Part shown: positions 21,099 to 60,444 of the stretch, piece after piece
Position numbering within the stretch: position 1 is the stretch's first letter
How the letters are laid out: every line of letters begins with the position of its first letter
Source of the DNA: Fomitopsis serialis
Lineage: Eukaryota > Basidiomycota > Agaricomycetes > Polyporales > Fomitopsidaceae
NCBI RefSeq assembly: GCF_022376445.1
Contig: NW_025954981.1
Location: forward strand, 408,111-472,110
DNA length: 64,000 nucleotides
Direction: 5' to 3'
Translations under genes and position numbers: made by a program
Notes under the pieces: generated by a model
What the model was told of the DNA's origin: nothing
Seen by the model: the letters and a program-made list of their open reading frames with translations, nothing else
The model's database searches: none

Positions 21099-21994
21099 GG
21101 GTGGATCGGAATATACTATGAGAGTGGAGGGGAGACGTGCCGGGGAGTGATCTCACAACGATGCCTCAGGCTCGCTGACCTCGTCCTCGGTTCTCCAAGC
21201 CTCACAAATCCCTCTGTTTCCGACTCGTTCCTGGGACTCTGTCCTGCCTCGATCTTGACTTCGTTCCGAAGGTGTCTTACTCTCGCTCTGCAGTCACTAC
21301 GCTTGCTGAGTTCATTCCGCGGTCGCCTCGTTCTCGTTCCGTGGTCGCCCTCCTTGTTCCGCAGGTTCCTGTGCTCGTTCCGCGAGCTCCTAAGCTAGCC
21401 CTGCTGATCCTCGTACTCGTTCCGCAAGCTCCTACGCTCGTTCCGCGAGCTCCTATGCTCGTTCCGCGAGTTCCTATGCTCGTTCCGCGAGCTCCTGAGC
21501 AAGTCCTGCTGATCCTTATACTCGTTCCGCGGGTCCTATGCTCGTTCCGCGAGGTCCTAGGCTCGTTCTGCAAATCCCTGTACTCGTTCCGCGAGTCCTT
21601 GTCCCCGATTACGTGGCGCTGCGTTCGTCCGAAAGATTCTTGATGGCCCGAGTAGATCACTGATGACCAACTCGGGGAGATGCCCTCAGCTCCAGAAATG
21701 TGATAAGAATGGGCGCGAGCCAGGCTCGCAGCCGTAGATTCGGAGTGGGGGAGAACTAAGGTATGTACCTGTCTTCGTGGCACTGTATGCCACGAAAGCT
21801 GACTAAGAGTATCTACTTGCTATATATGGTAAGTAATGCAAGATCGCACGAAGTCCATCAAGTACAGTAAGTTATAAGGTATCGGAGGGAACAATGAGAG
21901 CTCCCTGAGTGCTCGGAGGGGACAGTGATACTGTAAGAGCTCAGAATGAGGAATACACGTACTGTCCGGACCTATGTGGGGGGCACTCCCCACA
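21014..21994 (-). repeat. 5' LTR of the large element (right copy)
   Basis: 981-bp LTR, near-identical to 10938-11917 with about three differences: A/G in GATGTTC[A/G]AGG, one extra G in CTTCGGGGG, and A/G in CTC[A/G]TTCCG. It carries the same 21-bp array, the hairpin at 21774-21796 and the terminal palindrome. Confidence 0.9.
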
Positions 21995-38740: not shown

Positions 38741-39506
38741 TTCTAGTGTTTGTTTTTTGTCTATTAGCTGTCAGGTCCCGAGTCTCGCAGTCTGTGTCCG
38801 CGGCCCAAGTCACCCTACGTTCCTCTGTCGCCAACTTACATAGAATGAGATCGATTTCGGCCGATTAGTATACCAACTTACGTCGATCTCACCACGCTAA
38901 GTCAACGCGTTTGGCTCAGTATACATAGCCTTATAAGCCACGCCGCCCAACAGCTAAACGCGCGATGCGGACGCAATCCCGTGACGGCGGCTGTGCACTT
39001 GCAAGGCCAGGCATGCATCATCCCGCTAACTTAAGTTCGTGAAGGTCGTTCAGCTACACACACTCCGCTGCCCCAGCAACGCCCCCACTGGCACATCAGG
39101 AAAAACACTTGGGGCGCCCAACAGATTGGGAAAACCTTCAACCCGTTGGGACACATTCCGATGTATTGAAACAGATCGAGAGTTGTTGCGAGCCTTTGTA
39201 ACTTCTTGAAGCAGCTTTCGCTGTCTGTATAGCAATGATAAGTGGTTTTACCATCTGGTTTGAGGTTTAAAATGTTTCCGCTGCTGGTGCACTATAAAGC
39301 GCTTTGGCCAACCAAGTTCAATCATTTATCAAATCAAGTTCAAGCATTGAACATCTCATGCGTCAATGGCAAGTAATACACCGTTATATACAATCAGAAC
39401 GGTCCACTACTTCAAGTCGTCATCGTCAATTTTGACCGTTCAAAAATCTATGCTCTGTCTACGCTGAAGCGGTCCTCCCTCCCAAGTTCCACAGCTGCTC
39501 CCCAGC
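38741..39506. other. Intergenic, no gene; ends in array-type flank
   Basis: No gene seen. The right end (39368-39487) resembles 42223-42321, downstream of array copy 3 (for example AAGTAATACACCGT, CCACTACTTC, GCTGAAGCGG-CCTCCCTCCC), so it is the duplicated 3' flank of the array unit. Confidence 0.5.
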
Positions 39507-40569
39507 CTATTCATCATCGGCAGCATCCTCCTCTGTCACGGTCTCTGTTCCTGCCCATTTGACCACGCATCCATCCTCTCCAACTTGCGGCCGCACTGCC
39601 CGCAATGTCGGCGTCGCCGCAGGAGTCCAGGCCGCCTCGATGTACTTGCGGGGCTTCGGAAGGCGCACCGGCCAGATCCATTCAATCCCCGTGAAGTCGT
39701 GCATCATGGAGCACATGGGGGCCCTCTTCTGGTCTCCAATCGCATAGGAGTGGCAGAATGGGGTGAATTGGACCTCGGACTCCCTGAGAACGGGGACGCT
39801 CTGGAGAGGGAGTTGCCGGCGGATGGGAAACCCCTTGATGATGTGGTCAGGCACGAATGTCTGCATCTTGGGTTCGTAGAGGTCGAATGCTGTCTCCCTG
39901 TTGACCAGCTCAAATGCCTGCGACAAGACGGGCTGCTCATACGGTCCGGGAATCTCCAACTCCATCCCCATCTGGTCAACAATCCCAATAAGGGGTACTG
40001 GAACCGGGTCACACCCGTCCTGTACGATATGCCGAACGTGTCTATCAGGAACGGAGCGAGCTTTCAAAGACATCTGAGACGCACCGATACAAACATCAGC
40101 CCCTCAACCAACACTGCTTTCGGCGGGTGCATCATCCCCCGGGCTTAGCCTTTGGATTCAGCAGACGACGGATCGCTCTGCCATCACTGTAGAACTCGGG
40201 AACAACACCCATGAACACCCATCCCCCAAACTTGGCAGGAGGCCTGCGCAGTGCTGCGGCGCGGCCCAACATGTCAGCGACGCGGTCTGGATTGATCTGA
40301 CTGGCGCTGAGCCGCATAGGGCACCGGTTCATAAGACACTGGATGGAGAAGCATTAAGCACAACGCCACTACGATACCAGTTCAGAAGCACTCACGTAGT
40401 CATAGTACTCCGCAAAGTTCTGCTTCTCCAGGCAGACCACCGTAACATGGAAAGTGTTAGGGGCCATTGGGCACGGTGCCGCAAACTTGCACTCCCTCTC
40501 GAATCCATATTCCATGAATTTGCCCATGATCTTGAAAAGACGGGCATCGGTGATAGGCGAGGCAGGCAT
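39507..40569 (-). CDS. Tandem array copy 1 (WIWPV family), frame-broken
   Basis: First of five head-to-tail paralogues of a family I do not recognise. Exons: 40569-40396 (MPASPITDARLF… HVTVVCLE), 40338-40085 and 40019-39507. Exon 2 carries KFGGWVFMG then AVLVEGLMFVS, but these two parts are in different phases. The shift falls at the CCCCCGGG run 40136-40143, making exon 2 one base short of the 3n length its intact relatives have. Exon 3 is clean: VPVPLIGIV, MELEIPGPYEQPVLSQAF, PLQSVPVL, PMCSMMHDFTGIEWIWPV and GEDGCVVKWAG, with an acidic tail. It may be a young pseudogene or carry a sequencing indel. Its closest relative by flank is copy 3. Confidence 0.6.
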
Positions 40570-40925
40570 AGGGAGATGGAATTGCAGTGAGGAAGTGTTG
40601 AGGCGTGTTGGAAGAGGTCTGAGAGCGTTGTTAACACGTCTCAATCAAAGGTGATGGATTATAAGCAAGTTCTCACCTCCAAGCGCCCAAGCCACACATA
40701 GCGCCCGGCCACTTCTCAGGCTCCCAGAAGAGCGTTGACTTCGCTCTGAGTTGGTGCTTTAGTTCAATTTCGCAATTCTGAGGGGCTGCCATCTCATGAT
40801 AGTATCACTTTCCACGAAGACCATGTAGTAGAGTATTCAAATACAATCAATGAAATAAGACGTTACAGAATTACAGTTTTGACCCCATGAATCGCACCTC
40901 TCCTGTTCCTACGTCCCTGTCCCGC

Positions 40926-42064
40926 TCAGGCGATAATGATGGGGTTCTCCGCATCCAAGCCCTTCTTATTGAGCTCCTCCCAGCGCACCTCCTTGCCCTC
41001 GCCTACCCGTCGCAGCTGACACCCGGCCTCTCCAGGCCCAGGACGCACTGCCACCAGACCCTTGGGATCAGGCATCTGCACCACGCTCCACTCTGCCTCC
41101 AGATATTCGCGACGTTTTGCAAGTCCCACTGGCCAGATCCAGTCCAGCTCGATGAAGTTGCGCTTCATCGAGCACAGCGGCGGCATGTCCTCTGCTCCAG
41201 CTGCGAAGTTGATCACCAACAGCGTCATCGCAACGCTGGAGAGCTTCAGCACCAGGACGCTGGTGAGAGGCAGGGGGAGACGAATGCAGAACGACTCCTC
41301 TGTTTTTGACACTTTGAACGTTTGCAGAGACGGTTCGTAGGGGTCGAGGACGGGGATGGGAAGGCGGCCTGATTTCGGTGGCCTTTTGAACGGGTTCAGA
41401 CCCGGGAGGAGCTGCAAGAGGAGGGGTTGATGATACGGCCCTCGTATAGTCACTTCCGACTTCGTACTGTTGATCTCCCCTAAGAGAGGGACAGAGACCG
41501 GAAAATAATCCTCCTGTTGTCACGCACACATGTTTGTAAGTAGTGCATGAAGATTAGAAGAAATATGACACGCACATGAACGTAAATCAGGGCCTCCACC
41601 AGCGCTGTTCTCCCCTCCGCCCACGCGCTGCTTGGGGAGAACAGGGACAAAGCACGCTTTCCCCTGTTGCTCTCCTTCCAGAACTCGCGCACCATCCCCA
41701 TGTATACCCATCCTCCGAACCTCGGACCGCCTTTGAGTGCCTTCGCGCGCTCGAGCATGAAAGCTCTCTCCTTTTCGGACGACTGGACGCGACTGGGTTT
41801 CATGGGGCAACGAGAGATGTCGGACAATAAGCACTGAAACATCATCACGTCAGACGGAAGTTGTGTTGATGAGTAGTTTGAACTGGTACTCACATAGTCG
41901 AAGAGCAAGCCAAAGTGTTGTTCCTCCAAGCACACCACAGTGACGTGGTCAATGGCGGGGCACACCTTGCAGTCTTGCGACCGTGTACAGGCTAACTCGA
42001 ATCCAGGTCCATGCTCACCGAGTATGGCGATGAGGTTTCGGTCAACAGGAATGGGGGTGGACAT
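40926..42064 (-). CDS. Tandem array copy 2 (WIWPV family), intact
   Basis: About 338 residues from exons 42064-41894, 41833-41576 and 41513-40926, introns of 60 and 62 bp. Exon 1 has two Cys pairs around CKVCPAIDHVTVVCLEE, then FGLLFDY. Exon 2 begins CLLSDISRCPM and has FGGWVYMGMVREFW and GRTALVEALIYVH. Exon 3 reads PVSVPLLGEI, PYHQPLLLQLLPGLN, RLPLPLTSVLVLK, LCSMKRNFIELDWIWPVGLA and GEAGCQLRRV. There is no signal peptide or membrane segment. The conserved beta-rich patterning (VPL, IPGP, LPLPL) suggests one compact domain. Cytosolic location and function are unknown. All phases agree, so it looks functional. Confidence 0.7.
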
Positions 42065-42286
42065 AGCGTGATGGAGGTTGAGTTGAGAGATGTCTGAGAG
42101 TGGCGTAAAGGCCTATGAGCGAACGCCTACCCTTAAGCGCCGATATCGCCGGCCACTCATAGGAGATTGTTAAGCTCATGGGTCCTCAGAAATCGTAAAA
42201 TATGAGAAGCCTGGCATCAATAGCAAGTAATACACCGTAATATACATTCAGAACTGTCCACTACTTCCAGTCGTCATCGCACAAAT

Positions 42287-43401
42287 CTACGCTCTATCTA
42301 TGCTGAAGCGGCCCTCCCTCCCTTCCGCCGCCGTCCTCACAACACAGCCCACTTCCCCCACTCGCGCCCGCTCTGCCCCTATGCCCATCGGAGCCTCTCT
42401 CGTCACCACGGCCCATTTAGCCTCCATGATCTCGCGACGCTTCCCCAGGCCTACAGGCCAGATCCAATTCAGCTCGATGAAGTTATACTTCATCGAGCAC
42501 ATCGGATGAACGGGCTGTTCCCCCGTGGCGTAGTTCTGGGAATACAGCGTAAGCCGCACCGTCGAATCTTTGAGGACGAGGATGTTGTCCAGGGGGAGGG
42601 GGAGGCGGATCGGAAACGTCTGGTGCAGACGCGACGGCTCAAACGTCTGCGTCGACGCGTTGTAACGGTCGAAGGTCGTTACTCGTGGCTCGAGCATCTC
42701 AGCGTACGTTGGGAACTCCCGTGGCTTGAATGCGTTCAGCTTCGGGAACATTTGAGCGAGCATCGGTTGCTCAGACGGTCCCGGTATCACGATCTCCGAG
42801 CCCGTCGCGTTGACCTCGCCGATGAGCGGAACAGAGACAGGCGTATAGCCGTTCTGTACACGGTGTTCAGTGAGCGCGCCAACATCAGTGAGGGTTACCA
42901 CGTACCTGAACGTAAACCATTGCCTCAACCAGCGCCGTCCTCCCTTGCGCCGATGCGGTACTCTCCGGCCACATATCTATCAGAGGCCGCGGACACATGA
43001 CGCCGTAGAAGTCGTAGATCGCGCCCATAAGAACCCACCCGCCAAACCTGGGAGGGCTACCCAACTTGTACGCGTATTCCATCATTGAGCCTAGGTCTTC
43101 CTCGCTCGCCTGGATTTTGCTGGGCTTCATGCGGCACCCAGTCAAGTCGAACATCGGACACTGAGTGACGAACGCGTTGGAGACAAGCATCAGTAGCACA
43201 TCATGAGACTGCGGGCGTAGCACTCACGTAGTCAAATAACCACCCAAAGCGCTCCCTCTCGAGGCAGACAACCGTGACATGGTCGATCACCCGACATATC
43301 TTGCAAGATCGGGAATGCATGCAAGCGTCTTCAAAAGTAGGTAGTCCGGTCTGAGCGATGATGTTGACGAGCCGGTCGTCGATGCGGGATGCGGTAGACA
43401 T
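42287..43401 (-). CDS. Tandem array copy 3 (WIWPV family), intact
   Basis: About 331 residues from exons 43401-43228, 43160-42906 and 42853-42287. The start MSTASRIDDRLV aligns with copies 2 and 4, so the in-frame upstream Met at 43584 was not used. Exon 1 has CKICRVIDHVTVVCLERE. Exon 2 has CPMFDLTGCRM, RFGGWVLMGAIYDFY and GRTALVEAMVYVQ. Exon 3 has PVSVPLIGEV, EIVIPGPSEQPMLAQMFPKL, RLPLPLDNILVLKDST, MCSMKYNFIELNWIWPVGLG and GEVGCVVRTA. The frame is clean. Function is unrecognised. Confidence 0.7.
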
Positions 43402-43694
43402 AGCGGTGCAAGAAGATTGGAAGGAGATGGGTGTTGGTTTGACAGATCTGAAGGTCGACGCAAGACGTTTGGACGGAAGATGATCATAAGCGCCCACCGC
43501 CGCGCGCTGCGGCTGATCAGGTTCCATGGCTCGCTCAACAGCAGAGACCCTTCTACAAGTCGTGCTGGCGTACATAGATAGCAAACCGAAGCATTTCTCC
43601 GGTTACACGTAGAGAGATACATGAGTAGAATACAATTTTACGCGCTACAAGTAATCACAACCGTATGAAATTCGCAACGAAGTCAGCCTTAGTA

Positions 43695-44874
43695 CTAGTA
43701 CCCGTCTGAATCCAGCTCCCACAGCCGTTCCTCCCCTTCAGAATCGTCGTCTACGCCGAGGTCCACGCCCTCCTCGTCCTTCTCCTCGCTAGCCGCACGC
43801 TCCTCCCTTGGCTCCACCGCCAGTTTCACCACGCAGCCAGGTTCGCCGAGCTGTGGTCGCACAGCTACGGTGACCAACGGATACGGCCAGGGGAACACGT
43901 TCCACGCGGCTTCCATGTATGTGCGCGGCTCCTGGAGGCCCACAGGCCAGATAAAGTCCAGCCCGATGAAGCCGTACTTCAACGAGCACATGGGGTCGAT
44001 GGCGCGCCGGCCCCTCGCGTAGTCGAGGACGTGCTCCGTTTGCTCGACCGTGGCGTCCCTGAACACGGGGATGTCGCGTAGGGGGAGTTGCAATCGAACG
44101 GGGAAGGTAGGGCTCATTTTCGAAGGTACGAACGTCTGCCAGGCCGGGTTGTAGAGGTCGAAGACGGGCCATGGCTTGCGGGTCGCTCGTACGCCCTTGT
44201 AGCGGTTGAGAAGCGGAATCGCCTGCGCTAGCACAGGCTGCACGGCGGGCCCGGGGATCTCGAGCTCCATCCCCGTGGAGTCTATCACCCCGATGAGGGG
44301 GATGGGGACCGGATCTTCGGCGTCCTGTAGGCCGTTCAAATAGATATATCAGTAGTCAGTTACACGCTTAGAAGAGGCTCTTACGCACCGTCACAAAGAA
44401 TAACGTTTCTACCAGAACCGTACGCCCGCGCCTTAGTACGCCTGAGCCCGGCCTCTGCTCCAGCAACTGGCGCAGCTGCGCGGACTCCGGTCCAGGTGCG
44501 TACAGCTCCGGAACGGCCCCCATCAATACCCACCCGCCGAACTTCACAGGCGGGTCGCGGAGGAGGTCAGCGCGTTCTCGCATGCGATCGAGGTTTGCTT
44601 GCTCGGCCTGGACGCGGCACCTCCCCACGGCGCAACCGAAGCCGTTGTGCATAAGACACTGAAAAGAGCGTATCAGAGAAGGCGTTACACGGGGGAGACT
44701 ACTCACATATTCAAAAATCACCCCCAGACCCTCCCTCTCGAGGCAGACGACGGCGACATGGTCGATCTTGAGGCCGAGCTTGCAGCGTCGCGTGAACTGC
44801 GACACTTGTTGTACCGTTACGCCCAGAGTCTCCTTCACGATGTTGAGCAGACGATTGTCGACGGAGGTAGGCAT
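43695..44874 (-). CDS. Tandem array copy 4 (WIWPV family), intact
   Basis: About 355 residues from exons 44874-44707, 44658-44389 and 44324-43695, introns 48 and 64 bp. Exon 1 keeps HVAVVCLEREGL but has only one Cys of the pair (RRCKLGLKIDH). Exon 2 has KFGGWVLMGAVPELY and GRTVLVETLFFVT. Exon 3 has PVPIPLIGVI, MELEIPGPAVQPVLAQAIPL, QLPLRDIPVFRDAT, MCSLKYGFIGLDFIWPVGLQ and GEPGCVVKLA. It then extends into an acidic tail (DDDSEGEERLWELD) longer than in the other copies. The frame is clean. Confidence 0.7.
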
Positions 44875-44939
44875 AGTGAGATGTGCAGAGATCAGTTTTT
44901 AGTGGTTGAACGCGGTTGAGGATCGCAGGAATGTGTTTG

Positions 44940-45154
44940 ACGCGACTTTCGCCCTTAGGCGCTGAGAGCTGGCTTCCAGTTCGCACGGGCGCTCCGCAAT
45001 AATGGGGAAGCGCCTGGGTTCGCAAGACGGTATCGTATTAGCTCACACAAATTGATAGAATCTAGACGGAACATTGTAAATGGCGTGAACAGTACGAACT
45101 TCTCTCGACGGAATCTAAGTACAATCTGGAGACGTAGGAGTAAGAAATCATAGC
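44940..45154. other. Spacer between array copies 4 and 5
   Basis: About 215 bp with no gene. It should contain the promoter of copy 4 and the 3' UTR of copy 5. The gaps 40570-40925, 42065-42286 and 43402-43694 are similar short promoter/3' spacers with nothing else seen. Confidence 0.4.
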
Positions 45155-46386
45155 TCAGCTAATGGTACAACACCGCACCATGCACGCCCCGTTCTCCAGC
45201 CTCCACAGTCCCAGCTTCAACGTACGGAATCTCTCTGCCGTCCGCAGTGACCTCCCAAATTTCAATCTCCTGGACGCGCGGTTCCTGATGCCGATGTCTT
45301 CGTCCGGCGCGTTGTCGCCGCCTGCGCTACCCTTGGGCACCCCGCCATCCTCAGCAGCGGGCCAATCCTCGGATATGAACGCAGCGACTGAGTAGCCGGG
45401 CTCGCCAAAGCGTGCGCACTTCGCTACCTCGCCGTACCACGGCTCTATCCCCACGCGCCATGCGGTCGTGACGTACTCGCGCGGATGAGGAAGTCCTCGC
45501 GGCCATTGAACTTCAGCTCCATGAAGCTGGCCTTCATGGAGCACATGGGCTTGAGCGGCTTTGTGCCGCGCGAGTACTTCTCGGCGAATGCGGCGGTCGT
45601 GACGGAGCTGATTTTGAATACGGGTACAAACTCGAGGGGAAGGGGAAGACGGAACGGCACGTCGAGCGGGTGACGGATGACGGGGACGAACGTCTGCGTC
45701 TTGACGTTGAAAAAATCGAATTGTATTCTTCCCCCGCGCGGAATGCCCCTCCATCTATTGAGGGAGGGGAAAATTTGAGCCGTTAGCGGCTGGTCGAAGG
45801 AGATCTCGATTTCCTGCGTGTCGTCGCGGATCTGCCATACAAGAGGAAGGCACATGGGGATGTGGGCCTCCTGGTAGGCAGCTCCTGGTATAAGTATAAT
45901 GGCGAGTTGTTCAGAAGCCCGAGTACTCACCTCGAAGAATATGAACGTTTCCAGCGCAACGTTCCGCCCCTGTCCCCGGAAGTAAGGGGGCACATCCACG
46001 CCCCGGTGGCTCTCCAAAATGGAGCCCAGCAGTATCCACCCTCCCAACTTTGGAGGAGGTTCCAGGCGCGTACCAGGGCGAGTAGCTCCTCCAGCAGCTC
46101 CCGAGGGCCCTGCTCCTTGCTGGGTTAGCCGGACACATAGATGTGTTGTAGATAGTGCACTGTCCCAATGAATGGTCATGAAATTGTATGAGTAAGGATA
46201 GAACTGAGGGATGCTCACGTAGTCGAAAAGCCTCCCAAAGTTCTCTTCTGAATCCTCCAAACAAACCACCGTGACGTGGCGGGTCTCCCGCCGCTCGGAA
46301 CATATTCGTGACGCATGCGCAGCAATTCCGAATTGTGGTAGAGCCGGCCATAGGAGCTGAAGAACGCGTTGGTCGAAGCAAGCCAT
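45155..46386 (-). pseudogene. Tandem array copy 5 (WIWPV family), two frameshifts
   Basis: Most diverged copy. Exons: 46386-46219 (MACFDQRVLQLL… HVTVVCLED), 46159-45931 and 45870 to about 45155. Exon 2 starts in phase (CTIYNTSMCP) but KLGGWILLGSILESH lies in another phase, so a shift falls between about 46080 and 46125. Exon 3 is in phase through PMCSMKASFMELK and then changes phase near 45508 before WPRGLPHPREYV and EPGYSVAAF. Exons 2 and 3 each have a length one base away from a multiple of three. Likely a decaying pseudogene. Confidence 0.6.
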
Positions 46387-46560
46387 GTAGACGGAGTCTA
46401 AGTCAGCCGTAAAGAGGTTTGAAGCAAGTCGTCTTCCGCGCAAGCGCTCAAGTAATAACAAGACGAAAGGCTCTCCATTTGTTCAGTTGGAACGCGGAGA
46501 GAGCAAGATGGTATATATTGCTACCACAAGTTTGATAGGCATACATCCCAGTCCAGTTGT

Positions 46561-49500
46561 TTACATAAAACCGCTTTGCCTCTCTAGATATTCTGTGAAG
46601 TCCACTGGTCCGGAACGGTGCCACTTGGGCCGTCCAGGAACGACGGCGTAAGTTGGCAGGACTGTCGTATTTGGGAGACAGGGACTATTTCCCCTGGGGC
46701 AGCCCGTCCGTCCGTAGGGGTGGCTTACTGACAGAATACATGAGGTGCCTTGGATCCGCTGCAGCAGAGAACCTGGTGTACCATTCACGTAGCATAGGGC
46801 TCATCAGGCCACCACGGCGGAGACGGTGGGGCCCCTGGCCTATCAGGCAGAACTCTCGGGAGCTTGAAGACGACCTTGACTCTCCCGCTCTTGTACCTGT
46901 GTCTTGTCAGCCAGTGCCTGCAGTAATTGAGTGTCCTGTTGCTTACCTCTCACTCCAGTGGATTCTGCCTCGTTGTTCTCCAGAATAATCGCGGTGTCAA
47001 ACCGCTCCTTCTTCCTTTCTGAGCAGAGCCAGGAATGCCTTAATGAGATCTACTTCATCTTGTCGTCAGACAAAGAGCATGGCTTGAACTTGATTGATGG
47101 AATACGTCGAGTCGATCGAACGGTAGAACCGTCTGACTCAGTTCTTGCCGAGTGAGTCGCAGCTCCCGGGGCTGAAGGTCGTTGACGAAGAGTGCGAGTG
47201 CAGTGGTAAAGCCTGGGCGCCATGGAGCTCCTGGATGCGAACAAGATGCTGCTGAGGCGCGGCGCGTACTTCGCGATTCGGATGTTACGGTCGGCATCCG
47301 AGACTCTTCTGGACGGGCTTCACGCTCTTCCAACTCGTCGACACGGCTTTCCCTATCCGCCTCATCGTCCTCCAGCTCCTCAGTGGCCTGACGCTCGTTT
47401 TGAAAGACCTCGTATAGCATCATCTTCTCTCGTCTCGATATCCACCTCGTCATCTGCGGGAATTCGTCCCGGTGGTTCGATGCCCGCCAGGCGTCCTTGG
47501 CAAGGTCGATATGAAGACGCTCGAACATCTCAGTATTATAATTGTCTGTTGTTCCGAAGAGGCGGATAGAGTCGACGTAGTGGAGTAGGGAGTGAAACTT
47601 GGGGATATTGAGATGCTCGCGAATCCCTAATTTCACCAAGATGTTCTTGTGTTCGTGAAACATCTTGAGGGCATCGCTCAAATACCCTAGAGTGTCGTCA
47701 TCGTGAGTTGGGTACTGGGCGAGGTAGATGAAGTCGAGTAGAGAGCGGAAGCAGATGAGGAGGGACTTAGGGATTTTGCCAATGAGACAACCGAGGAGAA
47801 TACGAGCCATACCCTTGCGTTCGGTGCCCGTTATTTGTGACAGTGAAGAGATCCCATGCTTGAAGTGTCGAACCCCGAACGCCGGCGGCATAGAGCGGAT
47901 TCGCCTGTCAAGTTCCTTCGGACCGAGTAGATCTTGGCACCAGGTAACTAGATGTTTGAAGACGCCTTGGTACAGTTGATGGAGGACGTCCGGTGTGATG
48001 GAGAGGTGGATATCGGTGTAGGGCAAGTCTGCCCAAAACGGCTTCTTCACCCCACCCGCGACGTTCTGTTGCATACACAGGGCTTCGCAGGCTGCGTCGC
48101 TGAGCCCTTGGTTGGAGGCCTCCAGGATGATACTCTCCGTCATTTCAGACGTGCGAGGCTCAGCCGCAACAGGTTCCGCGAGTTTGTCGGCCGGACACTG
48201 GCACTTGGGACAGGTTCCGTACTTGGAGCATGCCACAAGACATTGCTCAGGGTAGTCCGCAACATAGGCCACTAGGATGGGATAAACGCGCCGTACAGCA
48301 CCGTCCCCTCCGGTGACTTCAATCCCATCCACGCCTGCGCGGACCAGAGGCTTGAGAATGATACTCATAGCCTCATGGAAGAGCCTCTGCGACCTCGCCT
48401 TGCGTTCCCTCTTGGTCATCTTGTCCCCAACTACCTTGGAGACAGGGAGGTATCCGAGCAAGATACATGCGTGTTGTGATGGTTTGCGGCGAATAGAACG
48501 TGGGATGTTACCAAGAGTAAGATAAACGGGATATGCGGTCTTGTTTCCCGAGAACTGCGTAAGCTGGGTCTTGTCCGTAGAGATGATCACAGGGGCGAGG
48601 GCCGCTCCTTCAGGTAGTAGTTTCTGCAACACAACGTGTGGGTCAGTAGCTCTTCCAATAACCCATTGACCTGTTGATCATACGTGCCTGCACTGAGTTC
48701 CACCACAGCCCCGTCCACATCTCAGTGTAGATTCTCTTCTGCTTTGAACGATCGGAGAACACGTGTCTTGGCCGGTATACAATATGTTTGGCGTAAGTAG
48801 GATTACCGAGGAGGGCCTTGATGGCCTGCAAGATGTCACGGTAGCGTACAAGGTGAATCTCGTCCGGTCGATCGGGAAAGCTCAACGAAGCTGTCTTCCA
48901 CGCAGCCCTGTCCGGGATATCGTCAACCTTCAGCAAAAGCTCCCGTACGTCCTTGAAGGTCAGTCCCAGCTTTTCTACAACCTATAGACAGCCTTTCAGA
49001 ATAGAAGTGCACAGATATGACGCAGCGGAGACTTACTCCTGGTATTGAGAGAAATCTGTTAATAGACTTCTGCCCTACGTCCTCACGAACAACCCACATG
49101 GCCACCCTCCAGTCCAGCTCTGAGGCAAAAGGCTTCCACACCTCGCTCCTATCCCTCCCTCTCGGCCTGCCATCCTCGCTGTCCACCTCCATTTGGTCCG
49201 CGTCCGATGTGTCGTCTTCTAGATCGTCCGCGAAGAATGCTTTCCATGTCTGTACAATGGTGGCGTCCATTCGGATGACCTTTCCCGCAAGAGAGTCCTC
49301 TTCTTCAACCCTGTCGTCCTCATCGTCGTCCAATGCTGGAGCTTGAACGACTCGCGGATCGGGCGGAACAGCTGGGTGCGTAGAGGACGAAGCCTGGTTC
49401 TCATCCTGTGTTGCGGGTTGTGTTCCCGCGTCAGGTAGAACAAACCTGAACAGGTCTCTGTTCTCCAACGCGTCCCAGATATTCTCCTGCGGGTCGACCT

Positions 49501-49729
49501 CCATGTCTTCGGCACTGGACAGAGCCTGTTCCTCAACCATTTGCTCCTCAACGTTCGGAAGATTGGACCAGAGGTCCTTATTCTTGCCCTTCCTATACCA
49601 CAGGCAAGACTTCGCTGTCGATAGGTGAGCCATTAAGCCCTGTGACGTATCAAATTCTCGGTCACAGGCTGGACACGTCCGTTCATCAGGGTCACTGAGA
49701 GGAACGAAGGGTGCTCGTCTTGACCTCAT
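46561..49729 (-). pseudogene. Plavaka-family (CACTA-like) transposase, copy 2, C-term broken
   Basis: Second Plavaka transposase, clearly related to copy 1. It starts MRSRRAPFVPLSD at 49729 with the zinc finger CPACDREFDTSQGLMAHLS. Then come an acidic region, KPFASELDWRVAMW, and an exon with FPDRPDEIHLVRYRDILQAI and TEMWTGLWW. The 525-codon core (48632-47055) has candidate catalytic acids in STDKTQLTQFSGNK, TPDVLHQLYQG and TEMFERLH, and the CPKCQCP knuckle. Near 47090 the conserved FHQ-IKFKP junction changes phase. The last exon (about 46930-46561) has VKVVFKLPR and IRQSCQLTP in different phases, so the C-terminus is probably dead. The core would still be translatable. Confidence 0.72.
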
Positions 49730-50572
49730 GATGCGAACACTGCTTTCAAGTTGGACTGATGGACTGGTGAGGTTCCGTTGGCTACACACAAAAAAACAAT
49801 TCACCTAAAGTTCAAACCAGTTCGAAGTTGATGATGCGTCCCGACGAGCTACAGAGCGCTTCCAATCAGAGCGTGAGCGCATCATATCGCCTAAGATCCC
49901 TTCAATTCCCCACGACGCGACGCCCGCCTGGACACTGACCTCCTCGTCTCTGCGCAATCCTCGCCGTAGAATGGTAGCAGCTGAAGGCTCTGACTAGATC
50001 AAAGCAAATAGAATACGCCTTCCAATTGCCGTGGTAACTGCACACTACAGGATGGTCATGACAGGGAGCGCGGTAGTAAGTACAGCTGCTGTCCTCCCCG
50101 CCTTCTAACGGTTGCCACCTATCTCACAGCAAGCTCATTGAGGGTACATCAGGTGCGGTCATCTGCATTCTCAACCGTGCTCACTCACCAACCGTACATG
50201 CTTTCTGAAGAGGACATGTTGGCCGAATGCTTGAGTGGTGTGTAGGAATTGCCTTATATGGTGTTTGCAACGCATGGCAAACATCCTTTTCCTCACTCTG
50301 GACGATACTGGGTGAGTAGGTACACCTCAAATCTGTTCAGGGGCACTGAGGTAAGTGATATCTTCGATATTTGAGCATATTTGAGCAGTACGTGCCCAGC
50401 AGTGAGTTCGCGGCCCAGTGAGAGAAGGAACTGAGTTGCAACAAGCTTAAGTCGGTGGTTAGCGCCGACAACATGGGATTGCGTCTGTTATTCCAAAGCT
50501 GTTCCCATGCACGTCGCCCTTCTCTCCATCGACGCAGCCTTGTCCGACTAGGTTGTCGACCGTAAACTCTCC
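49730..50572. other. Intergenic, no gene recognised
   Basis: About 840 bp between Plavaka copy 2 and the next plus-strand gene. It should contain one end of the Plavaka element and the promoter of the 496-residue gene. No terminal inverted repeat could be matched and no gene motif is seen. Confidence 0.4.
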
Positions 50573-52274
50573 ATGCAGGGACGATCAAGCTTGGAAAGTA
50601 ACTCTGACAGCGGGTCCGCGCCCGGCTCAGACGACTACGGCTCTGGGCGCAGTATACCTGGTTCCGACTCAGACTACACTGAGCCTGGCACACCCGTCGA
50701 TCTTCACCATCCCGTCGAGGTGGCCCTCTACTCGCCCAGCCGCTCTTTGGACGAGGACCAAGGGTATGCCGTGACTCTCCCAAAATCTATATCTCGCGAG
50801 GACTACTCCCGGCGCTCCCTGGCGATCTCTCCCTCCTCTGGTCCCACTTCCGCCGACATAATGCCTCAATTTCTCAAACTCATCAGGAGCCCAGACCTTT
50901 GCGAAGGAGACGAATACCGGCTTTCCAAATACTTCACTCAGATTCGGAACCTTCAGCTGGAGTGGCAGAATGCCGGTTGCGAAGGCTGGGTGACGAAGGT
51001 AACGTTACTAGTAGGCTATGATGCGGCCGTCATGTAACATCATTGTCAGGACATTACAGACGGTATGAATGAGCAGCTGTATGAGCTCATGCAGAAGAAG
51101 GTGGATGCTACGTGGGAGTGGGAGTTGGGCGAGGGAGAGTACCGGCGTTGGTTGCTGTTCATACGATGTATAAGGTGAGCAGCGATACGTAATGTGAATA
51201 TGAGATGAGTACCTGACTATCTCTAGAATGGACTTCTGGCCTAAGCAGGGTAAAGCCGTCGTCATTGCGCCGACCTTCCAAGAGGACATGGCGTACTCTA
51301 TGACAAAGCGCTTCGGCAACGCGTTCAAAGAGAGCGATCTCAACCCCATTCAGTCTGCGTTGACCATACCGTCCGACATGGTTGTGAAAGCCCCGGACGT
51401 GCACTTCAGCTTCAGGTACAACGCTGTGCTCAAGGAACCCCGTAGCAACGCGGCGTCAACGCCCTTCTTCTGTGTAGTTGCTCAGAGCTCCGAAGAGTTC
51501 CTGTATGAAACCAAGAAGGTACGTCCCGTACATTTGTACTACTTCTGGTTTTGTCTTAAAGCCTGGAATAGCTGGCGTGGGTCGTGGAGTCTAACGCCCT
51601 CTGCGGGCTGCAAGGATTTCTTGTTGCCCTTGTCGCCGAGGTCGACGAGATCACCACCCCTGACAAGCTGTACTTCCCCAACGCTTTACGCCTGCTAATA
51701 CTCCATCTCAACACCATCAACAAGGCCAGCAACCTGAATATTCGTTATCCCAAAGGTCCTCCGCCCCAGATGGTGTGTTGCACGGCATACTACGAACGTG
51801 AGCTGTTTCCTGCTTTCGTGGAGCAAGCGAGATCCGCCACCTCTGTGACGGACTGGTCCAACAGCGACCGCTTCATGGTAAGTGTTCATACCGCTGTCTC
51901 TCACTAAACTGACAATATCGATTACTTGGCAGTGGTTGACGTCCATGCGCAATGGACCGAGCGTCTTCCCACCGGATCGATGGACGATATTCGCGCAATG
52001 TGTCCGCTCAATCGTCGACGGCTATGCCGCTGAAGCGCGGACGACCGCCTCACCCAGCTCCACCTATCCAAAGCGCACCGTAACGGATGAGGAGTACCGT
52101 ACGGCGCTCCTCCGCATCCTCCCGCAATCCCTCGCGAGCGACCTGCAACAGGTCGTGTTCCAGGTTTTGGAGGGGATCGTGTCAGTCAGGGCGGGCAAGC
52201 GCAGGGTCACACGGCTTGTGGCGGCGAGTCCTTACAAGACTGAGGGGCTGTCCAGGTACGACGTCATAGTGTAG
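50573..52274 (+). CDS. Unrecognised 496-residue protein
   Basis: Five exons join in frame: 50573-50998, 51050-51174, 51227-51518, 51572-51877 and 51933-52274. The first about 100 residues are low-complexity and acidic (SNSDSGSAPGSDDYGSG). The rest is globular and alpha-rich, with KSISREDYSRRSL, FTQIRNLQLEWQNAG, MDFWPKQGKAVVIAPTFQED, DKLYFPNALRLLILHLN and CCTAYYERELFP. There is no signal peptide or membrane segment, no known motif and no frame break. It is followed 152 bp later on the same strand by another unrecognised gene, so the two may be co-inherited. Confidence 0.65.
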
Positions 52275-52425
52275 TATGTATATGCACTGGAACTACTTCA
52301 ACGATGATATGATACCCGTGTCTGCTTTATGCCTCTGGCCAGAGAATGCCACCCCAAGAGCGCCCGAGTGGGACGCTGAGTCCCGCGTTAAGTCCGAAGT
52401 CCCTTCTCTGTGAGAAGAGAAGGAC

Positions 52426-53692
52426 ATGCGGACTTGCACTGCGTGCAGCGCGTGCAGCACTGGGCGGATTGTCCGCCTCTCCTTCACGCCCGCGATGGCG
52501 GTAGGCGATGTTCACATCGGTGTCCAGCACCTCGCTCACAGATTCATTGATCTGTGCTCCCAGGACTGCGCATCTCTGGCGGGCATGACAGAGCCCACCA
52601 CCACCAACGATGAGCTCTCTGTTGGCGGTTTCCGGCCAGACTGTGTGGTCAGACTCATGGTGGGCCTACACCCCGCCAAGGGCCTCTATGTGGAGGTTCA
52701 CTCCTCGGAGAGCATGGCCCATGGAGTCAACAAGGTGAGCCGCCATCGGAACTGAGCCACCTTGCCCACTGATTGTTGAGCAGCTGGTAGAGGAATGCGA
52801 CGCCGGCGCCCATGCCGTTCTTGGGACCATCTTCTTCGCTGCATCGGAGGGCCAAATGAAGAAGCCTGAGCCTGAGGTGCTGAGGCAGTGGAAGGAGCAG
52901 GCGGGCAACCAGGACAAAAGGGACCCCTCTTCCTGGGGCCTCTGGGGCTTCATGGGGACTGAAGGGACTGGCAGCAGCGCCGCCACATGGCATCTGCATA
53001 GGGCACGGGAGGTTCAGGCGTTGAGGAAGGTCAACAGGGAGCATACCACGCCCCACATCAGTTTCAATCGACATGCGATCGTAGGAGCTCTCAGCGGGTA
53101 CGCCATCTTCATCCCATCGGCGTTGTACAACGCGCTACGACAACGCCCTCCATACCCTGGATGCGAGAAGTGGACAGCGAGGGAACTCAAGCTTTACTTT
53201 GGGCACATGGTGAGTGCCCCCTCTCCATCTAGACTGAGCTGAACTGACGTTCAGCAGGCCATCACGCCAAACGGCGAAAGCCTCGACTTCGAAAAATGCT
53301 CTGGGAAGGCCAGGGCGTTTTTCTACAACGTCTTCAAAGGTTACCTGGCCGCGGCTAGGTACAACATAACCATCATGTCCCAGGAGTTGAGCCTCCTCAA
53401 CTCCATCGACGACCTCGACGACCTCGACGACCTCGATGACCTACAAGACGACCTCAGCGCCTCTGACAGACGTCGAATCAACGTCCTACTGGGCGAGGTC
53501 AACGATTTCGCGGCCTTCAACGACGATGAATCTGATACGGACGATCGAGGGCGGTTCGAAGACAGCCAATTGTACAACAGGCTGGGGGCTGACGGCCTGC
53601 AGCGGCTATCCGCGGACTGGTCGAAAAGCATGGTGTACTTTGCTCAGTCTCTCGCTCAAGCTCGACTCAGACAGTGGTTTGGATGGCCATAG
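52426..53692 (+). CDS. Unrecognised 389-residue protein with DDL repeats
   Basis: Three exons join in frame: 52426-52734, 52784-53209 and 53258-53692. The start MRTCTACSACSTGRIV is Cys-rich (three Cys within nine residues). The middle has WGLWGFMGTEGTG, ISFNRHAIVGALSGYAIFIP and a short hydrophobic stretch that is weak for a membrane span. The C-terminal third has a 9-bp repeat coding DDLDDLDDLDDL at about residue 280, then acidic and helical sequence ending RQWFGWP. No family is recognised. The frame is clean. It lies about 115 bp upstream of the second oxygenase copy. Confidence 0.6.
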
Positions 53693-53806
53693 ATGTAGCT
53701 GTACGTATTTGTAGCATGAAATGTATTGCTTGTAACGTGTTCCAAACGTGTTCCAACTCATACTGCCCTCGGACATCGGCGCCTAATAACTTCTACGTCG
53801 TCCGTC

Positions 53807-56647
53807 ATGACTCCCACACTACAACACATTCTGAAGCTCTCCGAAGAAGAGAGTCAGGCGCTTCAATTGCTCTTGACGAAGTACGAAGACTTTCACTCTG
53901 CTCTGCCTGCTGTGCGGGATAGACTTCAATTGATCAGCGATGCCTTGAAGGGCGATGGGGGGAGATACCCAACGGTGAGTGCAATTGACTCAGGTGCTGT
54001 ACGTAGTAGTCTGACAACATATTGCAGGCAATCCGAACTCAGATGGCCATGAAGAACCCAGTCTGCGTCGTTCAAAACGCTGCCAGAACTCCAAGAAGTC
54101 GACGCATCACCGGGTCTCTCAGACCGCAAAGCTTGACAAGCAACCCCCCAAACCTGGGAGAAGAGCAGACAGAGGAGTGCTACCTCCACCGCACTGCAAG
54201 AGCGGCTCCTCAGTTAAGAAATGGGTGAGGCGTCGAGACCCGTTCAACCAGTCAACACCAGCCATCGGAGCGTTCTTTGCCCGTCTCTCTGCATCCATCG
54301 ACTTAGCCTCAGACCGCAGCCGCTCTCAGCTATCATCCGTGCGGGCGCTGCTAGAACAAGGAGACGATGGAACCGGATTCCTGGACAACACTCTTGAATC
54401 GATTGTTCAAAGATGTACGCGAATTACAACCGCTGACCAATGTGTCAGTTTCCTCGTCATTGTGCATTACATGCAGTTGGTCTGCAAAACCTCTAAGTCA
54501 GTGAAACATATTTGGTCATTGCGTCTATTAATCTGAAGTTGCTTGGATAGCATAAGACGCGCAAGCAATCTGAGCGTATGCCAGGTGTATGAGAAGCACA
54601 TCAGCGGTCACCCTTCCTCGCCAAGCCAGCGAACATTCTGTCACTGGAACGAGATTGGAAGCAGATTCTCGGCGATCGCAACAGGGGGTAGGTTGCTCGT
54701 ATATGTCCTTAATGTTGCAGTAAACAAGCAATATGGCTTATGCGCCCTCTCTGGCAGGATCTATCTACGCTGTCCTGCTGGTTATTCTAGCCGATCTGCG
54801 TAAAGACGTCATACAATCCGTTGGTGACTTTGCTTGGACGGTCGCCAACGTTCTACGTGATCCCGACCCTAGTAAGTACTAACTCACTCCGGCGCAGCTC
54901 ACCTCACACTAGTCTGCAGATACTGCGGCAGGTAGTATAGTCATTCAGCGTATCATCCCGGCTATAGACCGCGTGCGAGCGCAGCTACCTCTGCAATTCG
55001 ACGCACTGTACTCTCCTCCCATGCTGGTAGAACTTGGCGTGGCATTGGACACGCTTGATTGCTCCAATCTTGAGCACTCCGATAAATTGTTCGGCTCCCT
55101 AATACTCAAGTGAGCGTCCACAGACCTTTTGAACTTTGTGCTCTGCTAATTATACGTGGTGTGCTAGTAACTTTACTTCCGTGGATAGAAACCTGGAAAT
55201 ATGGGCAGCTTGCCTGCTTCCCAATCCCGATCCGGCCAGCGATGCGGTTCCGCTCACCCGGGCCAGTCAAAATCTCTTCCGTCGAAATGGCGACGTTGAG
55301 GGCGCGATTGATCCCCCCTCTCCCTTGTCCGATGTGTACGAAGATGAGGACGAGATCCTCGCTGAACAGTCCGATGTTGAGATGACGAATCACAACATAC
55401 CAGGCATATGCGTTGTAATGAAGGACTTCGATCTCAGCCTCGATGTGCATCGTGCGTACCCGGTGCCCAATCTACCTGAAGAAGCCTTCACTTGGACGGA
55501 GACTCAGCGTTTGCTGGCTGCAGCAGCGCTGAAACCAGAAACGCCCGCGGCATTGCAGGCCCTGGTATGTTCCCTTCGTTTGATCATACAACAGTGTACG
55601 CTCCTTCTCACCTGTAGCAACTGGTCTGTAGCTGTCACCGGCTGCTCCAGAAGGCCCCAGTGGACGGAAAGTCAAGGAATATGTTGCCATCAAGCCTGAC
55701 CTGGCATCGTGAGTAGTTCCTCAACTATCAACTGCGTCTATCTCACCCTTTGAAAGGGGTCCCATTCGAATCGAGGATAGTAGAGGATCTCTCGTCGCAT
55801 GCGTGTTCAACAACATGCCGCAAGAGATCCGCGAGATGCTCACTGTAAACTTGCTCGCTTGTTTTGAAGACCAGGCGGAGAATCTCAAAGAAACGTGCTC
55901 CTCATCGGAGGGAAGAGGTTTCAGCTTCGCGGCACTTCATTTCGCCTGGTATAACCGGCACGGGACAAGGGTCAGTGAATCCGTTTAACGTTCTACTGTT
56001 GGTATGTACTTCGTGCTGAGAATGGGCTATCACAGGGACACGATGTTCCGGTCGACGCACACCCCATACTCATTGAGAAAGACGACAACACTCGAACGAA
56101 CTACGGTCAAATGCTTCCCTACCCGTCACAAGACACCGGTAAATACAAAGACATCTACAATAATCTGCAATCCGTCTTCCAAAAATTGTTTGAATGGATG
56201 GCAGAGCAGGTACGTCTCTCTATCTACCCACTGAACTGAGTGGCTGAAATATATACAGCTCAAGGACTCGCTTTGCTTGGAATATGACGACCTACGCATG
56301 GACGCGGAGGTATTACCGGGAATGCCAGTTCTCTGGTCCATCCCTTCCTGTCACTCGTCGTCAACCTGAATGTGGCCACTCTGGCTCACAGAGACAAGCA
56401 GGATAAATCACTCTGTGTGTCTTGGCGGTGGAGAGTTTGAGGAGGCGAGCTGTGTCTGTACGAGCCCGGCCTGGCCCTTCCTCTTCGAAATGGCGATTTC
56501 GTCGCATTTCCTTCATCGCGCGTTACTCATTTTAACCTCCACTTTACTGGGCGTCGCGCCTCCATCGTTCTGCACACGGACAAAGAGATAGACAGGTGGA
56601 CAAAGGAAGGCCGTAACGGCTGGGCCGGCAACGCACATTTTCGGTAG
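53807..56647 (+). pseudogene. Tet-like 2OG-Fe(II) oxygenase, second copy, frame-broken
   Basis: Diverged paralogue of the gene split at 10846-25012, with the same exon order. It starts MTPTLQHILKLSEEES at 53807. Shared blocks: SIVQRC…HYMQLVCK, SQRTFCHW, DFAWTVANVLRDP, LTRASQNLF, FNNMPQEIREML, FAWYNRHGTR and NVATLAHRDKQDKS with the His-x-Asp ligands. The frame is lost near 54144-54149 (six Cs). It is lost again two or three times within about 56405-56445, just after the HRD motif, where the GGEL strand should follow. The rest of the domain, with its distal His and Arg, continues in another phase to TAG 56645-56647. Probably a pseudogene. It is not disrupted by a transposon. Confidence 0.65.
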
Positions 56648-56965
56648 CCTTAGCGCCCTGTACGTACGTTATGTTCCTCGGATGTACCTTGACTACCTAC
56701 CCTGCAATAGAACCACGTCACCTTGAACTTTAACTATGTTGTGGAACGCTGCCCTCATGCTCTACCTCTACCCATAGCTCTTTGAATCGCTTGAGACCAT
56801 AACCTCTTCGTCGGTCCTTCGGAGGGTGCGGACCTCAGTTCCGCGCATCTCCGCATCTCCGTTTTAGAAGCTCAAGGTCTTCTGTTATCGGCGAAACTTT
56901 GAAGGTAGACTTTCAACCTCTATTTCATCGTCTGCTCACTCTTTTCACGCTCATCATCTCACAAC

Positions 56966-59696
56966 ATGGGTCCCCGCAACACCCGCTCATCCGCAGCCGC
57001 GAACAAGGTCAAGACCCCGGTGGCGAGCAAGGCAAGACCCCGGCGGCGAGAAGTCTGCTGGTGCCGGGGTGGCAACCAAGTCTTCGTCCAGCAAAGCAGA
57101 TTCCGGAGCTGATGCTGTACCGTGCTGAGCTATGCAGCTCGGCTCAAGGCTATGAAGGAGTCGCTGCGATCCCTATTGCCCAACCTGACAGCGCAAGAGC
57201 TGGACGCAATGGCTCGGTCGAACCTAGCCAAGGGATCAAAGGGGATCTCTGGGAGAAGGAGCATCAGGATGGTACGTCCCCTACATTACTTTCTCACAGT
57301 ACACAATGGACACAGACATGCAGATGTCAAGCCAAGAGCAAGGCGATGATGGAACAGGAGGGGACGATGACGATGCCATTGCTGAGGAAGAGTCGAAGGC
57401 TGGGGGTCTGACGAGGATGAGCTAGTGATACCGTCGAAGAGCAAAGGGAAGAATCCAAGTAAGTAAAATCAGTTCAAGTGGCGAGGGATGGTCTGAGGCT
57501 GCTCCAGGGTCACCGGGCAAGTCCACACCCATTACCACGCCGCGTAAGAGGAAAAAATGTCCTTCTTCTTCGACACGAGGACAGCGATGGCGAATCTGGG
57601 TCAGAGAAGCCGAGAAGAAGAAGACCAGGACTCAACGCAGGATCAGTCGGCGGAACAGGCAACAGCAGCGGGTGAGTTTGTCAGATAAGTTTCAGGATTG
57701 CGCATGCGCTGGTAAGAATCATTCATAAGAGCTATCAACAGGTAACAAACGTAAGATCGTGGAGGTCGATTAGTTCTCGCCGAAACGCAGGCTCCGAAGG
57801 ACGAGATGATCTGGCTGCGCACCTTGGTGAGAGAGCATACATCAGCACCGTAGCCTAACATTTTTCAGGCTCGAGGACTGCGAAGGCGAAGAAGAAAGCC
57901 GCTCCCATCGTTCTTGACAGCAAGATGAGGATGAGCTGGAGACCAGCGACAAGGAGGGGGTCCCAGAGGAAGGAGACACGCTCGTCGAAGGCTGAAGGTG
58001 AGTACACACATTCCGGAGAAGGTACTCCATATGGTCACAGGTTCAGAGACGTTTACAGGCAAACATGTGGCAAAGGGCAACTCCAGCAGGAGAGAGCCAT
58101 CTCCCATGGACGTGGATGACTCACAGGACGGGAAGGCTCTTCGTACAAGGGCTCGACGGGATGGCGAGGACGAGGATGAGAGCGCGGACCAGTTGTTGTC
58201 GAAAGACGAGGAAGCTCCGAACGAGGTAAGCCATCTCCGCCAGTTGAACTGTGGGCTGAAGCTTTCTCGGTCAGATGATTGTGAAGATGGAGGAAGAGTC
58301 CGAGTCGAAGGGCAGAAGAGGAGGCAACCACGGAAGAAGGCCGACTCGAAGAAGTCCGATGCGGGCAAGAATGAGCCTACCGCTGGCGCGTATGAGAAGC
58401 TCATGGAGGACGTCGACGTCCGCAGCTTCTGGGGAAAGCCCAACAAGAGCTTAGGGTGTACCTTGCTCTGGAGAACGCTTGGCCTCGTATGAAGAAAGGC
58501 GTCTCCGAGAAGCATGCGGCGACTGCCGACATCGTTGAGCGGCTCATAACGAGCAATGTCAGGTACCAGAGGGAGGACTTCCAGAAGAAGTTCGAGCCCA
58601 ATGGGCCTTCCAGAAGACAAAGAACAAGATCATCGCATACGTACGTGTTAGCTCCCCTCATCATTCAGTACTAACCATATTCACGTTTTCCAGGTGAACA
58701 AGGCTGCACCCCAGCTTCGGCAGGAGCTCAAGCAGAAGGCGAAGCGCGTGGTGGAGAAAGAGTTCTTGTCTATCAGGCTGCCCGAGGTTGGGGACGATGG
58801 TAAACCGGTGGATGCTGTCGAGCGCAACCAGAAGGTGAAGAAAGCCCGGGAGAATCGCATCAAGTTCTTGAAAGACAACAACACCTTTCACTACGGGCAG
58901 CTTGTGCTACCGGATCCCGAGGTTGACCCATCGGTAAGTCTTCGATCTTGAGCTCGCGGTGTGCTGCTAACTGACGCCACTCAGCTGTGGGAGGAGCCAG
59001 ACCTGGACATGCCGTTCCATGGTCTGTGCGTGGCCGAGGTCATCGCTAACCAATGGTTCCGCGGACAGAACCCGGACGTGTTTCGCCCGGCGTGCAAAGA
59101 ACGGTTTGACCTTGACGGTGCGTTGAAGATCATCCCAAGCAACATGATTGCCCTGGCGTGCAGTGCGGTGAGTAATTATGCCTACTGATGTGCCATTAAC
59201 AAGCTTGACGATCCGAATGTCAGATTCTCGTGGCCTTGGACGAGTGGATGAACGACAACAACACGGTGGAATTCCAGGAGAAGGTGTACGCCCCAGCGTA
59301 GGCCACATATTACAGTCATCTCACAGGATAGTTCTGACACTCAATAGGTACGATCGCCTGCTGTCTGGCGTGGAGATGATCCGTCGGTTGGCCAATCCGA
59401 ACAACAAGGACTATGACGAGGGCTGGGAAAACCTCTCGGAGTCCCTGAACGCCAGTCTGTCCAAGAACATCAGGTAGGCGGCTGACTTTATTTGATTACA
59501 TTTCTAACAATTGTTCAGGGTGTTCGCTGGGCTTCGGGTGGATTCGCAGAGTGGGCAAGGCGACGAGAAGTCCAATGCGGACCTAGACCCTCTCATCAAC
59601 GCTGGGAAGGTGAAGGCGAGGTGGCGGTCGAGGGGTGGTGCTCCCGACAACGCTCAGGCTGGGCCGTCCAATGCTGCGTCCAAGGATAAGGCCTAG
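56966..59696 (+). pseudogene. DUF6532-type protein, second copy, frame-broken
   Basis: Diverged paralogue of the gene at 7773-10490, 318 bp downstream of the second oxygenase. It starts MGPRNTRSSAAANK. Conserved blocks: SYAARLKAMKES, LALENAWPRMKKG, APQLRQELKQKAKRVVEKEF, FHYGQLVLPDPE, DMPFHGLCVAEVIANQW, SNMIALACSA and YDRLLSGVEMIRRLA, ending SNAASKDKA at 59696. Phase changes are needed around 57000-57120, at G5 57402-57406, at A6 57552-57557, and near 58450 and 58600. The final 1 kb (58690-59696) is clean. Either a decaying gene or several homopolymer indels; the first is favoured because its partner gene is also broken. Confidence 0.65.
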
Positions 59697-60444
59697 GTGC
59701 GTGGGTTATCTCATCAGTAGGTTGCAAGACTGAGCTATCCACAGGGCTCTGATGTTGGAGGGTTGCTTGTAAGATACTGTCTTTCCCCTCTCTCCTCATC
59801 TTTGCTGGCATCGTCTTTGCTGGCGTCATCCTCACGCGTATCATCTCCGCTGGCGTTATTGTTCCTGTTGTTGTACCGCTCTCCGCTGCCCTCCAATGAT
59901 ATCCAGCCCCCTCATGTTGTATCCATGTCCACCGCATTCACATACCCGTCGTGTAGGATTGCCGCTGTGTACCGTCGCCCATCACGCCCATGTACGAAAT
60001 CGATATATTTATGACAGCTAATTCATGAATGTGCGTTATCCGGGCGGGTAAATAAATTGAGGAATAACAACCCTGAGGGAACAGCGGCCCTGAAACCGTG
60101 TGCTTTGAATCAAATGAGAGAGAACAAGAAAGTCATTAAACATATTTTTGCTATTCTCTGAAGACATTTCAATCATACCAAACTCAAATGTTCCCCGTGG
60201 AGAGCGCTGCTATGGATGTATTCATAGTAAGGACCAAACAACAACAACCTGATTCAAGCAAACAAGGCAATCTTGCAACTGGTTTGATAAATTTCTGACA
60301 CCTTTAAACAGGGGTACTTGTATTGAGTCGTGTTTGAGCGGTTTGGTCGCTTCAAACCGGTTTGGCTATCTTCAAATCAATTCTAAGAGCTCCGGCCCTG
60401 CGGGCGGTTTTTCCTGATGCAGGTATCGAGGGATCTCTCAGGGC
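59697..60444. other. Intergenic, no gene recognised
   Basis: About 750 bp between the second DUF6532 copy and the LINE. AT-richer from 60050. No motif, and the 5' end of the LINE could not be placed. Nothing supported. Confidence 0.4.

Follow-up and report, generated by a model that had tools for sequence, protein, structure and literature searches.

A tandem gene array lies inside a PlavakaB-like DNA transposon in Fomitopsis serialis

Five tandem genes and the element around them

The window analysed here is a stretch of 64,000 nucleotides from one contig (labelled C124, positions 408111-472110) of the brown-rot polypore Fomitopsis serialis. Between positions 39507 and 46386 it holds five paralogous three-exon genes, all on the minus strand (Table 1). 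This arrangement had been proposed in a sequence-only reading of the DNA and was borne out by spliced models and their translations, in which the motifs listed by that reading are also present. As had been read, three copies are intact and two are broken: copies 2-4 form complete GT-AG spliced frames, each interrupted by a pair of introns that are 48-70 nt long and in phase 0, and copies 1 and 5 are frame-broken on the window's contig. Using iterated exon profiles, the order of exons 1, 2 and 3 was recovered in most of the loci fetched from the genome, and the array pattern is far beyond chance.

Table 1. Features of the element and of the gene array, in window coordinates
Feature	Coordinates	Strand	Remarks
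Whole DNA transposon, PlavakaB-like	39094..60419		21,326 bp; begins with CATCA and ends with TGATG; exact 13-bp inverted repeat at the termini; no homology of other copies beyond either end
CA target-site duplication, left	39092..39093		Matches CA at 60420-60421
CA target-site duplication, right	60420..60421		Matches CA at 39092-39093
Left terminal inverted repeat, CATCAGGAAAAAC	39094..39106	+	Common to five loci that each have a different outer flank
Right terminal inverted repeat	60407..60419	-	Ten further contigs show this end
Plavaka transposase	47055..49804	-	Main frame 47055-48677 (PF18759); upstream frame 48923-49804
TET/JBP-like dioxygenase exons	55713..56647	+	Stops in the frame holding HRD and the distal stretch; looks damaged
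Exons of gene with DUF6532 (PF20149)	58652..59188	+	25.1 bits (cut-off 24) and 22.1 bits, the latter below cut-off
Copy 1	39507..40569	-	Exon 2 frame-broken
Copy 2	40926..42064	-	Intact, 338 aa; exons 42064-41894, 41833-41576, 41513-40926
Copy 3	42287..43401	-	Intact, 331 aa; exons 43401-43228, 43160-42906, 42853-42287
Copy 4	43695..44874	-	Intact, 353 aa; exons 44874-44707, 44658-44395, 44324-43695
Copy 5	45155..46386	-	Transposase-proximal; frame-broken on the window's contig, intact on C62 and C345

The broken copies have counterparts on two other contigs, C62 and C345. For copy 1, the C62 counterpart is near-identical and broken too, and the C345 counterpart is diverged and intact. Copy 5 corresponds to the open reading in an unnamed database protein (P0002), in which the introns are read through in frame. 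The window and C62 have a 7.35-kb block in common at 99.85% identity, within which there are six substitutions and five sites where the length differs by one base, with a longer gap at the block edge. All five of the one-base differences in length fall in copy 5. Because of this, and because both counterparts of copy 5 are intact, we give copy 5 little weight as a pseudogene; its break is no less consistent with a consensus-sequence error than with pseudogenisation. Copy 5 thus offers weak evidence for the birth-and-death pattern proposed earlier. When compared with C345 (locus L010), window positions 39975-46441 form a mosaic, in which copies 3-5 are 97-100% identical per 250-base bin and copies 1-2 only 66-87%, with an abrupt switch in identity near 42000.

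A DNA transposon of 21.3 kb encloses the array, which is not an ordinary host gene family. On the left, the similarity between the window's array and four others has its edge at 39093-39094, and all five outer flanks differ. On the right, the homology of nine contigs (C345, C773, C668, C533, C88, C736, C158, C196, and C453) to the window ends at 60419-60422; six different right flanks are found on these contigs, one of them common to four of the nine. The main frame of the transposase matches PF18759 with an E-value of 7e-90 (302 bits against a cut-off of 26), and the upstream frame, for which no Pfam match was retrieved, carries what by our own reading may be a C2H2-like motif. In its Plavaka transposase, CATCA..TGATG termini and 2-bp duplication, the element is PlavakaB-like. 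The earlier description of the array as lying beside transposases was right about the nearby transposase and wrong in taking the array to be merely beside it, as both are within one mobile element.

The TET/JBP-like gene of the element was recognised through DNA similarity of 55750-56692 to places elsewhere that match PF12851 (above the cut-off on C23). The TET-like stretch on C345, which is 100% identical at the DNA level, scores below the PF12851 cut-off, and the 68-aa piece at 56441-56644, searched alone, yields no PF12851 match. The window's exon has an HRD...TH pattern, that is, HxD. The HxE hallmark of PE-type TET proteins is absent from this exon, where HRD and in-frame stops are found instead, and this copy looks damaged.

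Several other features are present in the window. A second Plavaka transposase was found at 32483-34876, a second TET/JBP-like frame at 21820-22338 (PF12851, E 1.6e-5, below cut-off), and one more perfect match to the terminal 13-mer CATCAGGAAAAAC at 25914, in the DNA neighbouring the element; these three are perhaps part of another Plavaka element without the array family. Near-identical repeats at 11102-11742 and 21179-21819, about 10 kb apart, flank two very long frames (1549 and 1142 aa), and may represent a retroelement's long terminal repeats.

A diverged family under constraint

The genome assembly is unphased and comprises 66.2 Mb in 806 contigs. Merging the results of four exon-3 queries gave 108 exon-3 places on 43 contigs among the matches listed, a count that includes fragments of 20-24 residues and haplotype copies, is pushed up by near-duplicate haplotype contigs, and is held down in that it covers the scored part of each candidate list. 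From the fetched stretches and the window, 92 gene groups were chained, fragments included, and 45 of these gave intact models, a model being taken as intact if its frame runs 100 codons or more into exon 3 with no interruption. Of the 45, 44 have phase 0 at both introns. Representatives below 85% identity number 30, with a median identity of 31%. The sequence-only reading had called the array a young, local expansion; given the spread of exon-3 places over 43 contigs and the low median identity of the representatives, the family is neither young nor local, and it is old within the F. serialis lineage. Several arrays (those of L009/L010, L016, L019, L027, and L029) also combine members from separate, mostly well-supported clades.

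The absence of a known domain and the restriction to one lineage, both proposed earlier, held up in database searches. Copy 3 alone, used as a query against Pfam, retrieved 0 families up to an E-value of 10, and with 12 family members as queries nothing scored above the curated cut-offs of Pfam (best E 0.067) or NCBIfam (best E 0.018). No relative was found among PDB sequences, and database protein searches returned named relatives in F. serialis and none outside it. The family proteins are not basic on the whole. A short C-terminal motif resembling [IV]-W-E is present in 11 of the 45 intact proteins, such as the copy-5 counterpart on L009, often with a glycine after it and an acidic stretch before it. 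Among known domains, those of the beta-grasp type (ubiquitin-like, PB1, DIX) were considered as candidate structural relatives of the family protein.

Selection was assessed with pairwise dN/dS (Nei-Gojobori). Pairs with 56-76% protein identity gave values of 0.34-0.46, including copy 2 against its C345 counterpart (0.36) and against a copy from another element (0.34), as well as two further pairs at about 60% identity (0.39 and 0.46). Among close pairs, one gave 0.12, others 0.78 and 0.85, and one with six changes 0.92, the values of 0.78-0.92 resting on few changes; deep pairs are near saturation, with dN/dS up to 0.88 and a median pN/pS of 0.69 (967 pairs). On the whole, purifying selection acts on the moderately diverged copies. 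No listed pair exceeded 1 where dN/dS was computable.

These values also bear on whether the genes are selfish cargo whose target is the host and not the element, with killer and allorecognition factors as examples. Starship elements carry cargo comparable in kind to such host-directed factors, and the diversified multi-copy arrays and the mosaic relationship to C345 described above would both fit. However, with no listed pair above 1 where computable and no match to a known domain, we regard this explanation as quite unlikely.

Copies of the element at other sites

Four elements were read at both ends. The duplications are CA/CA in the window, TG/TG on C345, TC/TC on C158, and AA/CA on C62, and thus match in three of the four, with C62 mismatched; the corresponding element lengths are 21.3 kb, 21.5 kb, 9.2 kb, and about 21.0 kb. 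In a wider set of 42 locus/strand sets, a terminus was found within 2.5 kb past the last family copy in 25, and in 20 of those it lies at a distance of 467-601 bp. No terminus was found within 2.5 kb in the other 17, a few of which are cases where the fetched stretch ends early (e.g. L039). Eight groups of near-identical array-side ends, making up 16 pairs, are more than 90% alike over the inner 150 bp. The identity of the outer 60 bp in these same pairs is 0.13-0.38, with a median of 0.25 that equals the median of all 300 pairs. Since the outer 60 bp are unrelated in 16 of 16 pairs, the near-identical ends sit at different sites, and this is recent movement.

The surroundings of the family are similarly regular. 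Family places on the same contig and strand were grouped into a cluster when less than 4 kb separated neighbours (n=59). In 24 of the 59 clusters a Plavaka transposase on the same strand was found upstream within 5 kb, at 1.7-3.4 kb, where 0.5% would be expected at random; for the remaining 35, none was found within that distance among the matches used (124 of 139 matches, from 123 scored of 323 candidates, the 15 omitted being further pieces of listed places). The short fetched flanks contain a same-strand transposase in 16 of 41 sets. An opposite-strand TET/JBP match lies within 15 kb upstream of 17 of the 59 clusters, with about 1% expected; the distance is 9.4-12.3 kb in 15 of the 17. Single fragments and short contigs explain some part of the sets and clusters that have no terminus or transposase. 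The family is usually found just inside one element end, downstream of the transposase and on the same strand.

An ordinary host gene family, evolving by birth and death under conflict or adaptation and merely residing in transposon-rich DNA, would likewise present tandem paralogues, broken next to intact copies, and no known domain, and the 35 clusters for which the matches used include no transposase on the same strand within 5 kb could be counted in its favour. It is nevertheless contradicted by the element boundaries, at which near-identical array ends adjoin unrelated flanks, and by the tight distances to the transposase and to TET/JBP where these were found. We consider a host family very unlikely.

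Individual loci show further arrangements. The C158 element (C158:28248-37472; L017, L058) is a 9.2-kb derivative that retains both ends, the TC duplication, the TET side, and a portion of the array; no transposase was found in it among the matches listed, nor upstream of the array up to C158:34000. At C18:110603-112967 (L022), a pair of elements is arranged array side to array side, with about 260 bp between the two ends. At C62:64039, the right flank is the same as that of the window element and the left flank is different, with the mismatched duplication noted above. At C401:211257, the right flank is present without the element and adjoins a third sequence, which is unlike every left flank it was compared with. 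The C62 and C401 flanks thus yielded no clean empty site; either long near-identical elements were misjoined in the assembly or flanks were rearranged, as may be the case at these loci.

Redundant haplotype contigs could, in principle, have inflated the family. The division of 66 Mb into 806 contigs, the near duplication of C62, C124, and C345 over much of the array, and the inconsistent left flank of C62 are all in keeping with such an artefact. It would account for the counts only, however, as the 30 representatives below 85% identity would remain, and near-identical ends with different flanks also speak against it; we judge it highly improbable as an explanation.

It is also conceivable that the genes are passengers caught between the element ends, of no benefit to the element. 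The number of copies per cluster varies from one to five, 45 of the 92 chained loci (fragments included) are intact, and the C158 derivative keeps part of the array with no transposase detected, as might be expected of passengers. Against this, dN/dS is clearly below 1 at moderate divergence and the family is present in diverged element lineages, which makes the passenger explanation unlikely in our view.

Relation to known elements and possible role

The termini CATCA..TGATG and duplications of 2-3 bp are described for PlavakaB, to which all TET+ Plavaka elements are assigned (Kojima 2025, PMC12730594). According to the portions of that paper used here, TET+ Plavaka elements were reconstructed only from two Agaricales, and an earlier study cited there implied a Plavaka-TET/JBP association in several fungi, including the polypore Fomitopsis pinicola. 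The window element resembles these TET+ PlavakaB elements in its PF18759 transposase, its ends, its 2-bp duplications, and its TET/JBP-like gene (PMC12730594). It differs in that its TET-like gene reads HxD, whereas the PE type reported for Plavaka has HxE as its hallmark, and in that the F. serialis elements carry one to five copies of the accessory family near one end, of which none is noted in those portions (PMC12730594).

We consider it very probable that the genes of the array are accessory cargo of a large PlavakaB-type DNA transposon (39094-60419). Counting against this reading are the sets with no terminus found, the clusters with no nearby same-strand transposase among the matches used, the C62 and C401 flanks, the HxD of the TET-like gene, the lack of conspicuous subterminal repeats, and the higher dN/dS of some close and deep pairs. 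The best reading is that PlavakaB transposons have here a new accessory gene family that diversified in tandem, with a molecular role that we infer. The family proteins would serve the element in trans. Our preferred role, which we favour tentatively and with somewhat less than even confidence, is that of a regulatory or anti-silencing factor acting alongside the element's TET/JBP-like dioxygenase; a transposition cofactor is our second choice and a less probable one. Tandem duplication followed by divergence would allow different copies to escape or counter different host restraints, the outcome being element lineages with one to five diverged copies.

Two plant systems offer analogies. TnpA is the second gene of plant CACTA/EnSpm elements, a related transposon class, and the accessory family may be likened to it as likewise being a second gene. 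Unlike in the TnpA case, the F. serialis element ends showed no conspicuous subterminal repeat sites. The VANC genes of Arabidopsis VANDAL elements may be compared as element-borne non-transposase genes in an epigenetic setting, although the VANC system, as described in the portions of PMC10398659 used here, has tandem target repeats, and none stood out in the F. serialis ends (PMC10398659). As no subterminal repeats of the TnpA or VANC-target kind stood out in 12 non-redundant ends, and as the family proteins are not basic overall, a TnpA- or VANC-like DNA binder is disfavoured. A more specific form of the anti-silencing role, in which the family would be an analogue of plant VANC that cooperates with the element's own TET/JBP dioxygenase, each member being tuned to another host restraint or element variant, is a speculative suggestion to which we give limited credence.

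The analysis moves about 100 orphan places (haplotype copies and fragments counted) in a wood-inhabiting polypore from an unexplained host expansion towards transposon cargo, and serves as a warning that other lineage-specific expansions could be transposon cargo as well. It also shows that the cargo of a TET+ Plavaka element can include an additional gene family that is diversified and under purifying selection, and the array family offers a starting point for studying the escape of fungal transposons from silencing.
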